Shown here in pieces: positions 10,959-41,288 of a DNA stretch of 64,000 nt (positions are counted from its first letter, which is position 1; each line of letters opens with the position of its first letter). Made by a program: the position numbers and the translations under genes. Origin of the DNA: Acidipropionibacterium acidipropionici (GTDB lineage Bacteria > Actinomycetota > Actinomycetes > Propionibacteriales > Propionibacteriaceae); the NCBI RefSeq assembly GCF_001441165.1, contig NZ_CP013126.1, positions 1,889,551-1,953,550 of the forward strand. Direction: 5' to 3'. A model generated the notes under the pieces. It saw only the letters and a program-made list of their open reading frames with translations. It was not told where the DNA came from and ran no database searches.

Positions 10959-11024
10959 GAGAATCCCGGTCAACGGGGGTTCGGGTCGGCACAGCGGCAA
11001 GAACCCTCGTTGAGCGGGAGATCC
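10959..11024. repeat. Palindromic intergenic repeat, copy A (degenerate)
   Basis: About 23-bp imperfect inverted arms (left GAGAATCCCGGTCAACGGGG, right ending GTTGAGCGGGAGATCC) around a 20-bp loop. It lies between the convergent CoADR and cstR-like genes. It is the most diverged of four copies (others at 35962, 40031 and 41222). Confidence 0.8.
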
Positions 11025-35961: not shown

Positions 35962-36029
35962 CGAGAATCCCGCTCAACGGTGGTTCAAGGCGCTGTGGGG
36001 CGCGGGACCGCCGTTGAGCGGGATTCTCG
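35962..36029. repeat. Palindromic intergenic repeat, copy B
   Basis: Perfect 19-bp arms, CGAGAATCCCGCTCAACGG at 35962-35980 and its complement at 36011-36029, with a 30-bp loop containing AAGGCGCTG. It lies between the convergent purL and slipin genes. Confidence 0.9.
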
Positions 36030-36045
36030 CCCGGGACCGATCGGT

Positions 36046-36822
36046 TCAACCCTCCTTGTGGTCGCCCAGGTGCCCCAGCAGCGGGGTGAGGATGTCCATC
36101 GGCAGCGGGAAGACCACCGTCGAGTTCTGATCGGCGCCCAGCTCCAGCAGGGTCTGCAGGTATCGCAGTTGAAGGGAGGCTGGGCTCTGGGAGAGCACAT
36201 CGGCGGCCTGCTTGAGCTCCCCGGAGGCCTGCAGCTCGCCGCGCGCGTTGATCACCTTGGCGCGCCGCTCCCTCTCGGCCTCGGCCTGCCGGGCCATCGC
36301 CCGCTGCATCGCCTCGGGAATCTCCACATCCTTGATCTCCACCACCGAGACGTCGACCCCCCAGGGCTGGGTCTGGACCTCGATGATCTCCCGAAGGTCC
36401 GCGTTGAGCTGCTCGCGGTGGGCCAGCAGGGTGTCCAGGTCGGCGCGGCCGAGCACACTGCGCAGAGTGGTCTGGGCGATCTGGCTGGTGGCCACGGCGT
36501 AGTTCTCGACATTCATCACGGCATCGGTGGCATCGGTGACGTTGAACAGCACCACCGCGTTCACCCGGGCCGGGACATTGTCCTGGGTGATGACCTCCTG
36601 GGGCGGGATCGTCAGGGTCACCGTCCTGGTGTCGACGCGGACCAGCCTGTCGAGTCCCGGGACGATGAAGACCAGCCCGGCCCCGTGCAGGGGCCTCAGC
36701 CGGCCCAGCCGGAAGATCACCGCACGCTCGTACTCGGGGATGATCTTGAGGCAGGTCACCAGGATCCCGGCGACGAGTACCACTACGGCGATCGTCGTGA
36801 AGAGCCATTCCGTGTGATTCAT
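36046..36822 (-). CDS. Slipin / stomatin-like SPFH membrane protein
   Basis: A 258-residue SPFH protein. One N-terminal membrane helix (about residues 7-28) is followed by the SPFH domain (IIPEYERAVIFRLGRL, PGLDRLVRVDTRTVTL, RSVLGRADLDTLLAHRE) and an EIPEAMQRAMARQAEAERER coiled-coil. Slipins form oligomeric membrane scaffolds. They usually pair with a NfeD protease partner; none is seen here. Instead it overlaps by ATGA the WhiB-like membrane gene behind norB, so all three are one operon. Confidence 0.9.
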   Translation of the reverse strand: MNHTEWLFTTIAVVVLVAGILVTCLKIIPEYERAVIFRLGRLRPLHGAGLVFIVPGLDRLVRVDTRTVTLTIPPQEVITQDNVPARVNAVVLFNVTDATDAVMNVENYAVATSQIAQTTLRSVLGRADLDTLLAHREQLNADLREIIEVQTQPWGVDVSVVEIKDVEIPEAMQRAMARQAEAERERRAKVINARGELQASGELKQAADVLSQSPASLQLRYLQTLLELGADQNSTVVFPLPMDILTPLLGHLGDHKEG

Positions 36823-37565
36823 CGAGGACCTCCGGTCCTGAAGGTGTCGGTACTGTGGTCGGTGCCGTAGCGGGTGCGCCCGCTCGACCAGCGGGAGCTG
36901 TACCGCCGGATCAGGTGCGCGGCCTCGTCGGCGGCACGATCGGTGAGCGGCCGGCCACCCGCGCCCAGGGTCACGCTCCGGGAGCGGGGACCCATCGTCT
37001 CGTCGAAACCGGCGTCGGATGACGCCGAGGACTCGATCGGGATCTCGTCGGGTATCGAGACCGGCTTGTTGCGCAGTGATCGGGCCATCGGCCAGGCCGC
37101 AAGGGCGACCACCACCAGGGTGGCCGTCAGCGTCACGTACTCCGCGACGCTGCGGGCCGCGATGAGCATCGCGGCCGGCAGCACGAAGGCGGCCGCGAGG
37201 ATGCACAGGCTCATCCCCCGGTGGAACATGCCGGCCTCCGAGTAGGGCCACGGATCCACCGGGGCGGTGATCTCCCGGGCGTCGACGCCGGGGGCGCAGG
37301 CGTCCTTGACCGGGCAGCGTCCGCAGATCTCGTGCTGGCCCCGGTAGCGGATGACCCGTTTCTCCGGGTCGAAGCTCGCCGGCCACAGCCAGTGATCCTC
37401 GTGGCATTTCCAGGCGCCGTTGTCCTCGTGGAAGACGAAGTTGGTCTCCTTCCATTGACGCGATCGTCGGGCGCTGCGCTGTCCCAGGACGTCGAGGAGC
37501 CAGGCCACGCCGATCAGCAGACCGGCGTAGCCGCACACCAGGAAGATCTCCAGGGAGGTGGTCAC
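36819..37565 (-). CDS. Membrane protein with WhiB-like Cys4 motif, norB operon
   Basis: A 248-residue protein. Predicted order: helix at about 5-27; basic stretch RSARRSRQWK (cytoplasmic side); Cys-rich segment with Cys54, Cys81, Cys84 and Cys90; two helices at about 112-132 and 139-160; polar tail. The spacing C-x26-C-x2-C-x5-C and the text ICGRCPVKDAC closely resemble the [4Fe-4S] motif of WhiB proteins (C-x14-22-C-x2-C-x5-C, with CPV). The usual WhiB G[V/I]WGG turn is absent. WhiB clusters react with NO, and this gene overlaps norB by ATGA and the slipin by ATGA. A membrane Fe-S NO sensor or electron carrier is inferred; a zinc site is the alternative. Confidence 0.8.
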   Translation of the reverse strand: MTTSLEIFLVCGYAGLLIGVAWLLDVLGQRSARRSRQWKETNFVFHEDNGAWKCHEDHWLWPASFDPEKRVIRYRGQHEICGRCPVKDACAPGVDAREITAPVDPWPYSEAGMFHRGMSLCILAAAFVLPAAMLIAARSVAEYVTLTATLVVVALAAWPMARSLRNKPVSIPDEIPIESSASSDAGFDETMGPRSRSVTLGAGGRPLTDRAADEAAHLIRRYSSRWSSGRTRYGTDHSTDTFRTGGPR

Positions 37566-39922
37566 GACCGCGGACCCTCAGTGGTCGCGTGCTCTGCGCC
37601 ATCGGCCGGTGACGGGTCATTCCCGGCGGGCCCGGGAACGGTGAACAGGCTCTCCACCGGCAGCTCGTCGACGGTCTTGCCGCGGTTGCGGAACCGCCAT
37701 CCCTGGAAGGCCATCCAGAGGAAGGGCAGCACGCCGCCGACGATGAAGACGATGTCTCCGGGCATCCTCATCCACTCCAGGACGGAGTTGCGGTGAGAGG
37801 TGATGTAGTTCAGCGATCTCGCCTCGAAGTAGCCGGCGCCGACCGCATGGTAGAGCTGCAGCAGGCCGAGCGGCAGCAGGGTGACGAAGACCATCCAGAT
37901 CAGCCCGATGTTGGTGCACCAGAAGGAGATCTTCGCCAGCTTGTCGTTCCACTTCTCCTCGGGAATGAGGTAGCGCAGCGCGAACATCCCCAGGGCCAGG
38001 GCCAGCATGCCGTAGACGCCCATCATGGCGCCGTGGGCGTGGTTGGCGGTGAGTGCCGTGCCGATCTCGTAGTAGGAGACGATCGGCAGGTTGATGATGA
38101 AGCCGAAGACGCCGGCCCCCACGAAGTTCCAGAATCCCACGGCGACCAGGAACATCACGCACCAGCGGTGCGGGAAGGGGGTCTTCGACTGGGACTCCTG
38201 ACGCGCTCCCAGCTGCATGAAGGCCCACGCCTCGACGGTGAGGAAGGTCAACGGGATGACCTCCGCCGCCGAGAAGAAGGCGCCCACGGCCATGCTCGAG
38301 CTCGGGGTGCCCGAGAAGTACAGGTGGTGCATGGTGCCCAGCACCCCGCCAGCCGAGTAGAGGATGACGTCCATGTAGATGATGCCCAGGGCGACCTTCT
38401 CCCGGACCACGCCGAGCATCACGAAGATGTAGGCCACCAGGACGGTGGTGAACAGCTCGAGGAAGTCCTCCACCCACAGGTGCACCACCCAGAACCGCCA
38501 GAACTCGGCCACCGACAGATGGCTGCCCGAGGTGGCGAGCTGGCCGACGGCGTAGAAGGCCGGGATCGACAGGGCCGAGAAGAAGAAGACCCAGGGCATG
38601 TTCCCCCGCGACTCGCCCTTGAGGCGGCCGCGGATCGAGCGCCAGATGATGAAGACCCACAGGAACATGCCGACGGTGAGCAGCGTCTGGTAGAGCCGCG
38701 GCAGGTCGAGATACTCCCACTGCTGGCCGAAGAGCGGTCCGCGCGCCCAGGACACCCCGTAGATGGACAGCATCTCCGAGCCCAGGGAGCCGAACACGAC
38801 GATCGCCACGGCCGCCAGGAGCACTCCGGTCCAGCGCCCCTGGTGCTTCGGCTCGCGCCCGGAGATGAAGGGGGCCAGGAAGATGCCGCCGGCCAGGAAG
38901 GCCGCGGCCGTCCAGAACAGGGAGAGCTGGACGTGCCAGGTCCGGGCCAGGTTGTAGGGGAACCAGCTGGCCAGGTCGAAGCCGAAGAAGCTGGTGAGGT
39001 CGGAGCGGTAGTGTTCGGCGGCCGCTCCGACGATCGTCTGCATGAAGAACAGTGCGGCGATCACCAGGAAGAACCAGGAGCACATCCGCTGGGACTTCGT
39101 GAGGCCCACGTCCCTGGGCCGGATGAAGGACAGGGACGGCACCTCGGAGGCGTGCCAGCCGATGGTGCGGCTCCAGCGGCCGTAGATCGCGAACATGATC
39201 CCGGTGCCGCCGATGAGGACGATGAGGGACAGCGCCGACCACAGCACCATGTCGGCGGTCGGCTTGTTGTCGACACGGGACTCGGAGGGCCAGTTGTTCG
39301 TGTACGAGTAGTTCTTCCCGGGACGGTCCGCGGCCGAGGCCCAGGCGGTCCATGCGAAGAAGCTGGTGAGCTGTTTGGCCTGGACGGGGTCCTTGATGTT
39401 GTCGGCCAGAAGGCCCAAGTTGTGGGAGTTCTTGCCGAAGTAGTCGGTGTAGTAGCGCACCAGGTCCTGGTAGGCCGAGGCCTGCTGGGGGGAGAAGGTC
39501 AGCACGCCGGTCTTCTCGTCGTAGCGGTTGGTGCGCCAGTCGGCCTTGTTGGCCTCCGTCGGATCGTGGGCGCCCGCCTCCCGGCGCTGCTGGAGGGTGT
39601 TGTCGGTGGCGCGCCTGAGGTAGTCGGCGGTGAAATCGGGGCCGAGGTAGCCGCCGTGGCCGACGATCGACCCGTACTCCATCAGCCCCCGGTTCTGGAA
39701 TATGACCTGACCTGCGGTGATGTCGGCCTTGGTGAACAGTTCGGTGCCCTCGGTCGTGGCGACCTTCTCGGGCATCGGCATCGAGTCGGTGTAGGTGGCC
39801 CATGTGACGGCACCCATGATCGTGAAGCCGAGCAGCATCACCAGGACGACGCCCTGGATCCAGCCCTTGCCCACGACCATGGGCCGGCGCGTCGATGACA
39901 CCACCTTCGTTGTGTTCGTCAT
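37562..39922 (-). CDS. norB: Quinol-dependent nitric oxide reductase (qNor)
   Basis: A 786-residue heme-copper-superfamily enzyme reducing 2 NO to N2O with quinol. The N-terminal extension with its periplasmic domain (residues about 40-230) replaces NorC. Heme and FeB ligands appear in ARTWHVQLSLFW, VVHLWVEDFLELF, TMHHLYFSG and ANHAHGAMMGVYG. About 14 helices are visible. It probably protects against NO or supports denitrification. First gene of an operon with two overlapping partners. A leaderless start at ATG 39922 fits the TAGAGT hexamer. Confidence 0.96.
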   Translation of the reverse strand: MTNTTKVVSSTRRPMVVGKGWIQGVVLVMLLGFTIMGAVTWATYTDSMPMPEKVATTEGTELFTKADITAGQVIFQNRGLMEYGSIVGHGGYLGPDFTADYLRRATDNTLQQRREAGAHDPTEANKADWRTNRYDEKTGVLTFSPQQASAYQDLVRYYTDYFGKNSHNLGLLADNIKDPVQAKQLTSFFAWTAWASAADRPGKNYSYTNNWPSESRVDNKPTADMVLWSALSLIVLIGGTGIMFAIYGRWSRTIGWHASEVPSLSFIRPRDVGLTKSQRMCSWFFLVIAALFFMQTIVGAAAEHYRSDLTSFFGFDLASWFPYNLARTWHVQLSLFWTAAAFLAGGIFLAPFISGREPKHQGRWTGVLLAAVAIVVFGSLGSEMLSIYGVSWARGPLFGQQWEYLDLPRLYQTLLTVGMFLWVFIIWRSIRGRLKGESRGNMPWVFFFSALSIPAFYAVGQLATSGSHLSVAEFWRFWVVHLWVEDFLELFTTVLVAYIFVMLGVVREKVALGIIYMDVILYSAGGVLGTMHHLYFSGTPSSSMAVGAFFSAAEVIPLTFLTVEAWAFMQLGARQESQSKTPFPHRWCVMFLVAVGFWNFVGAGVFGFIINLPIVSYYEIGTALTANHAHGAMMGVYGMLALALGMFALRYLIPEEKWNDKLAKISFWCTNIGLIWMVFVTLLPLGLLQLYHAVGAGYFEARSLNYITSHRNSVLEWMRMPGDIVFIVGGVLPFLWMAFQGWRFRNRGKTVDELPVESLFTVPGPAGNDPSPADGAEHATTEGPRS

Positions 39923-40030: not shown

Positions 40031-40101
40031 GACGAGATTCCCGCTCAACGGGGATATGAGGCGCTGGGCGACGATCATCCCCGTTGAGCGGGAATCACGT
40101 C
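40031..40101. repeat. Palindromic intergenic repeat, copy C
   Basis: 25-bp arms (40031-40055 and 40077-40101) with one mismatch, core TTCCCGCTCAACGGGGAT, and a loop with ATATGAGGCGCTG. It lies between norB and the divergent DUF559-like gene, so it is not a terminator. It shares GGGGATATGAGGCGCTG with copy D in the same orientation. Confidence 0.9.
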
Positions 40102-41221: not shown

Positions 41222-41288
41222 CGAGAATCCCGCTCAACGGGGATATGAGGCGCTGCGGGGGCGCGGAACCCCGTTGAGCGGGAAATCG
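41222..41288. repeat. Palindromic intergenic repeat, copy D
   Basis: Left arm CGAGAATCCCGCTCAACGGGG, right arm CCCCGTTGAGCGGGAAATCG, loop with ATATGAGGCGCTG and GGGGGCGCGGA. It begins directly after the stop codon of the DUF559-like gene. Confidence 0.9.

Follow-up and report, generated by a model that had tools for sequence, protein, structure and literature searches.

A four-cysteine membrane protein encoded between norB and a slipin gene in actinobacteria, a candidate accessory subunit of quinol-type nitric oxide reductase

The quinol-type nitric oxide reductase (qNOR) has been treated as a single-gene enzyme. Its solved single-subunit representatives 6l1x, 6qq5 and 3ayf, which we take to come from Neisseria, Alcaligenes and Geobacillus, possess the same two domains as the NorB studied here and are similar to it in length. 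This NorB is encoded in a 64,000-nucleotide stretch of Acidipropionibacterium acidipropionici (contig NZ_CP013126.1, positions 1,889,551 to 1,953,550; hereafter the window). Unlike the solved enzymes, the actinobacterial norB sits in a conserved operon with genes for two further membrane proteins, a protein with four conserved cysteines (hereafter the Cys protein) and a slipin. The enzyme thus comes with two conserved and tightly coupled membrane partners, in genera that range from Acidipropionibacterium and Corynebacterium to Mycobacterium and Cryobacterium. A qNOR has also been described from Rhodococcus equi (PMC13332983).

The third gene of this trio, which encodes a stomatin-type slipin, recalls the slipin/stomatin-NfeD operon (STOPP); passages of two papers pair slipins with NfeD or with a serine protease (PMC10153343, PMC2258279). 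In contrast to STOPP, the fixed partners of the slipin here are norB and the Cys gene. No paper that connects a nitric oxide (NO) reductase with a slipin, SPFH protein or stomatin was found in open-access full texts, a body that leaves most of the subscription literature outside. The original prediction, made by a model from the letters of the window, knew of no described system of this composition, and we likewise found none in these texts. The parts are of known kinds, and the combination of the trio and the accessory protein look new.

Gene order, spacing and cysteines of the norB trio are conserved

NorB matched the cytochrome c-like domain PF22085 (6e-53) and the COX1 domain PF00115 (9e-50) of Pfam, the fusion that marks a qNOR, and residues 25-741 aligned with the solved NorB structures 28pn, 6qq5 and 3ayf (E values 1.6e-150 to 6.6e-148). 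The slipin matched the Pfam family Band_7 (PF01145, 3.6e-39). Compared with solved structures, it matched stomatin 9oh9 at 8e-71 and HflK at 4e-7 and is thus of the stomatin type; against the HflK profile it scored 67 bits, with the cut-off at 159. Searches of the own genome, which covered its single contig of 3.65 Mb, also returned a second NorB (C1:1451702-1452250, L053; 34% identity), with neither a Cys protein nor a slipin within 10 kb.

The three genes lie in the order norB, Cys gene, slipin gene on the minus strand (Table 1) and overlap, as the original prediction had described. Of the ATGA that it had read at both joints, the one between the Cys gene and the slipin gene stands; the joint between norB and the Cys gene is GTGA. 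Both overlaps are of four bases. The Cys proteins of A. thoenii and A. jensenii are 76% identical to the copy in the window.

The pattern C54-x26-C81-x2-C84-x5-C90, with the text CGRCPVKDAC, is present in the Cys protein as claimed. When the protein, which has six cysteines, was shuffled 200,000 times, C-x20-30-C-x2-C-x5-C arose by chance in 46 shuffles. The original prediction had staked itself on homologues keeping the four cysteines and on the gene being conserved beside norB. Both expectations held, and the conservation is much stronger evidence than the shuffling: none of the 61 aligned homologues departs from the four cysteines, and the spacing C-x26-C-x2-C-x5-C was identical in 80 of 80 loci; two lineages, described below, lack the whole domain. 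The 80 loci are the best 80 of 186 actinobacterial stretches that encode relatives of the Cys protein. The same species may occur among them and in the genome sets below, and the counts were kept separate.

In every one of the 80 loci, which include Mycobacterium, Mycolicibacter, Corynebacterium, Cryobacterium, Arthrobacter, Intrasporangium and Actinomyces, norB was located upstream and the slipin gene downstream of the Cys gene on the same strand. From the stop of norB to the Cys start that was chosen, the distance was at most 24 bases (80/80). A furthest-upstream slipin start was found in 77 loci, and in 75 of these the Cys stop overlapped or touched it. When the Cys protein was used as a query at an E value of 0.001 or better, matches were obtained in 9 of 96 genomes of relatives and in 18 of 394 genomes of the class. 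Fifteen of the latter were below 1e-20 and three were weak (4e-4 to 6e-4). As the own genome belongs to both sets, strong matches were present in 23 genomes, with NorB directly upstream in all 23 and the slipin directly downstream in 22 (the exception is G291). Further, NorB was detected by PF22085 in 18 of the 394 class genomes, 15 of which were exactly those with a strong Cys-protein match, and the gene adjoined norB in all 15. Two of the weak matches, G205 and G134 (E values 4e-4 and 6e-4), come from short loci in which neither NorB nor a slipin was seen, and the 15 do not include them; the remaining one, G455, is a version without the Cys domain that adjoins norB.

In G455 and G208, a short protein encoded right after norB aligned with the hydrophobic parts of the Cys protein and lacked the Cys domain, and no slipin was found within the fetched stretch. 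G172 had a different NorB (35% identity), with neither a Cys protein nor a slipin within 8 kb. In G660 and G640, from another family in the phylum, norB was accompanied by a Cys protein, with no slipin within 8-10 kb; in G640 the NorB match was split over two frames and the Cys-protein match stopped at profile position 123. Among the loci examined, none that lacked the Cys domain had a slipin gene next to norB. In a NorB tree of 32 rows, rooted on a single, very distant outgroup, the two Cys-less NorBs formed one clade (100/100) that was sister to G660 and G640 (99/99), with a weak deeper join (81/42). Because Cys-bearing NorBs stand on both sides of the Cys-less clade, the tree favours an origin of the Cys-less lineages by loss of the domain.

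The Cys protein appears to consist of a first transmembrane stretch, the four-cysteine domain, two further transmembrane stretches and a tail. Across the 61 sequences, three hydrophobic stretches (about residues 10-28, 118-138 and 146-162; bounds chosen by eye) had a mean hydropathy of 1.6-1.9. The middle protein is thus likely tethered to the membrane, as had been predicted. The mean number of lysines and arginines was 0.1 in the N-terminus, 4.1 after the first stretch, 0.1 in the loop between the second and third, and 1.1 after the third. The positive-inside rule links positive charge to the cytosolic side. Because of this charge bias and that rule, we infer that the N-terminus faces outward and that the Cys module, between the first two hydrophobic stretches, and the tail lie in the cytosol. 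H115, where the second stretch begins, was histidine in 59 of 61 sequences and also in both Cys-less versions. Because it is kept even there, the helix part of the protein probably has a conserved role of its own. Four matches of the Cys protein to solved structures were obtained, all at E values of at least 1.2 and all across the helices. The Pfam family DUF998 was rejected as an assignment: its match (E 0.0011, residues 102-167, mostly helices) was under the cut-off and recurred in 2 of 61 members.

The cysteine module is related to a domain of IS1182 transposases

The original prediction likened the Cys protein to the WhiB family. WhiB (Wbl) proteins share with it four cysteines at nearly equal spacing and the text CPV, and all 61 members have the four cysteines with C-x2-C-x5-C. 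According to a passage of PMC6282962, WhiB proteins possess four cysteines and G[V/I]WGG, and the cysteines of WhiB1 are C9, C37, C40 and C46. Unlike WhiB proteins, the Cys protein has hydrophobic helices and no G[V/I]WGG, which was absent after the last cysteine (about residues 81-150) in all 61 members, and the profile tests failed. The window protein did not match Pfam WhiB (PF02467) at an E value of 1. PF02467 matched 29 of the 61 members with E values no worse than 0.1 (best 0.0062), and a hand-made consensus of the Cys domain scored 15.4 bits, below the cut-off of 23.6 bits. A WhiB search of the own genome at E 0.001 did not return the Cys gene.

A cysteine domain of IS1182 transposases (NF033551 positions 345-417; PF13751, DDE_Tnp_1_6) matched instead, and the two have in common the pattern F-x-Y...CP...C-x2-C-x5-C...GR. 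The window protein matched the NCBIfam profile NF033551 at 1.7e-5 (23.9 bits, residues 30-103). NF033551 matched every one of the 61 members with an E value no worse than 0.1 (best 2.6e-12), and DDE_Tnp_1_6 matched 54 of them (best 5.5e-5). Profile-profile comparison by hhalign gave 97.8% across 62 columns for the Cys module and the IS1182 domain (19 fragments from 30 loci, picked by a cysteine pattern, three near copies dropped) and 11.6% across 30 columns, with the first cysteine unaligned, for the module and WhiB (32 sequences from 33 loci). When both families were searched jointly with the family profile, IS1182 sequences reached 34.9 bits and one WhiB scored 13.1 bits (E 0.0073).

The whole-family profile was also run, without selection by cysteine pattern, against 296 genomes of the phylum, with at most 10 candidates scored per genome. 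Nine genomes were matched: the own genome, G660, G640, G727, G669, G598, G510, G596 and G561. The matches in G727 (2.7e-14) and G669 (2.3e-12) are transposases by Pfam, with a first cysteine spacing of 26 as in the Cys protein, and the G669 transposase matches plasmid genes named IS1182. Those in G598 (4.4e-9), G510 (1.5e-4) and G596 (5e-4) overlap IS1182 matches; the match in G561 was at 7e-4.

Because the profile, hhalign and genome-wide searches agree, we concluded that the Cys module is homologous, at the level of sequence, to the cysteine domain of IS1182 transposases. WhiB kinship was rejected on the profile, motif and joint-search tests, although a very remote link may yet exist, given the one WhiB in the joint search. 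The Cys protein is not itself a full-length transposase: its score against NF033551 lies far below the full-length cut-off of 270 bits. Unlike IS1182 transposases, it has no DDE nuclease core, it carries the module between two hydrophobic stretches, and its gene is linked to norB. In a tree of the domain (72 columns), the NorB-linked modules formed one clade (100/99), the nearest to which were, weakly (92/67), the transposases of G727 and G669. The module was likely captured from an IS1182 element, with the direction of transfer read from these relationships; this is short of proof. Nothing relevant to IS1182 together with cysteine or iron-sulfur was found in the open-access literature.

A possible qNOR accessory subunit and its alternatives

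The conserved trio suggests that the enzyme works within a larger assembly. Given that the gene is strictly linked to norB, that the genes are tightly coupled and that the cysteines never vary, the simplest reading is that the Cys protein is an undescribed accessory subunit of qNOR, the cytosolic four-cysteine module of which would link NorB to a slipin ring. We favour this reading tentatively, at slightly less than even odds. The three helices of the Cys protein would sit beside NorB, with a cytosolic four-cysteine metal module of the IS1182-transposase type between helices 1 and 2. This module and the charged and aromatic C-terminal tail would dock NorB to the ring formed by the slipin of the same operon, and the ring would gather qNOR into a membrane microdomain. 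Were the metal an iron-sulfur (Fe-S) cluster, it could be nitrosylated by NO that leaks into the cytosol; the docking would then become looser or tighter, and the module would serve as a local gauge of NO. The fullest version strikes us as improbable. In it, a transposase cysteine module would have become an NO gauge with a [4Fe-4S] cluster, anchored in the membrane, through which NorB is docked reversibly into the slipin ring, and NO itself would set the assembly of this respiratory microdomain. If the complex is real, a bacterial slipin would gain a concrete cargo, the capture of a domain from a mobile element would have a case open to testing, and actinobacterial NO tolerance and N2O release could be approached in a new way.

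Against the docking to a slipin, the slipin is not obligatory: in three loci (G291, G660 and G640) the Cys domain occurs without a slipin in the fetched stretch. The tails speak for the reading, with reservations. Short RYSTRWGG-like and YxSDR-like motifs are shared by the tails of Cys proteins (36819-36914 in the window) and by some NorB tails in related loci. The motifs R/K-Y/F/W-x-T/S/K-R/K-W or Y-x-S-D-R/N/H were found in 59 of 80 Cys proteins, 13 of 80 NorBs and 0 of 593 other open reading frames; the patterns were written after inspection of the tails, NorBs were given a longer stretch (the last 110 residues, against the last 70 for Cys proteins and other open reading frames), and many of the 593 are not real genes. 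The shared motifs may serve as a lead.

A structural zinc site is the usual expectation for a transposase-type domain. The Cys protein could accordingly be a protein adaptor between qNOR and slipin whose module binds zinc purely structurally, with no redox or NO role. We consider this unlikely but a serious alternative, for which both the homology of the module to the transposase domain and the failure of our searches to find an NO-sensing relative speak. On the other side, C-x2-C-P-x4-C with one distant cysteine is the pattern of the [4Fe-4S] proteins MutY and EndIII and is found also in Cas4 loops. Because of this resemblance to [4Fe-4S] loops, we lean slightly, by analogy, toward [4Fe-4S] over zinc as the metal of the module. 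The same pattern occurs in WhiB1, as a passage of PMC6282962 has it. The EndIII_4Fe-2S profile also matched residues 81-90 of the Cys protein, at chance level (E 0.46).

Less probable again is an assembly or iron-delivery factor that inserts non-haem iron or haem into NorB and is absent from the mature enzyme. The strict linkage of the Cys gene to norB would suit such a factor, and the cytochrome-c-type NO reductase requires the chaperones NorQ and NorD for FeB insertion; the same source, in the passage concerned, states that FeB insertion in qNOR requires no extra genes (PMC9976466). Further, neither NorQ nor NorD was among the families listed in Pfam, NCBIfam and PHROGs scans (one of which listed 25 of its 28 families).

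The quinol and haem sites of qNOR lie toward the outer side of the membrane. An electron-transfer subunit that feeds NorB from a cytosolic donor, a role that the original prediction had also proposed, would explain a likely metal module in an operon with a redox enzyme, but it is very unlikely: the charge bias places the module on the cytosolic side, qNOR already draws electrons from quinol, and two lineages keep NorB without the Cys module. Least credible of all is a membrane-tethered Fe-S protein of the WhiB type that senses NO, for which the spacing (26-2-5 against 27-2-5), the CPV, the PF02467 matches and the one WhiB in the joint search would argue, and against which stand the missing G[V/I]WGG, the hhalign and joint-search results and the own-genome search.

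Neighbouring genes and other features of the locus

Neighbours of the trio were counted in the sequence fetched around it, which spans no more than about 12 kb, and Pfam was run on two members per cluster. Two genes recurred, one for a universal stress protein (22 of 80 loci) and one for a histidine kinase that combines two GAF domains with HisKA_3 and HATPase_c (21 loci). At least one of them was present in 33 loci and both in 10, all of them Mycobacterium or Mycolicibacter. Neither recurred in other genera of the 80 loci. Because the two are confined in this way, the shared unit is the trio. The two-GAF layout is that of the gas-sensing kinases DosS and DosT. This neighbourhood would fit a response to NO or to low oxygen and leaves our weighing of the role of the Cys module unchanged. 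The commonest neighbour cluster (36 loci) runs antisense to the trio or overlaps with it; it was set aside because its genes look spurious. Inspected by eye, norB and the Cys gene of G660 (L207 3617-6035) precede genes that resemble cydA and cydB and one for an ABC transporter, and a hemerythrin-like gene is convergent to the slipin-less norB pair of G291 (L054 3969-4475).

Table 1. Coordinates of the norB trio and of other features (window positions, or positions in the locus named)
Feature	Position	Strand	Description
norB	37562..39922	minus	786 aa; single-subunit quinol-type nitric oxide reductase (qNOR)
Cys protein	36819..37565	minus	248 aa, GTG start; candidate qNOR accessory subunit
Four-cysteine domain of Cys protein	37251..37439	minus	about residues 43-105; C54, C81, C84, C90
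Slipin (stomatin-type SPFH/Band 7)	36046..36822	minus	258 aa
Histidine kinase / universal stress protein examples	L126 8983-10692, L130 228-1943, L136 2729-3484, L127 7383-8240		
Palindrome, copy 1	10964-11019		one mismatch per arm
Palindrome, copy 2	35968-36023		
Palindrome, copy 3	40039-40093		
Palindrome, copy 4	41228-41283		

When plasmid carriage was examined by tblastn at E 0.001 against 72,556 plasmid records, no match was obtained. A dispersed palindrome, CCCGCTCAACGG...CCGTTGAGCGGG, with arms about 30 bases apart, looks like an element of the repetitive extragenic palindromic (REP) type. The genome has nine strict copies, three of which are inside 5.3 kb at this locus. Two copies flank the norB trio, one 22 bases past the slipin gene and the other 116 bases before norB.

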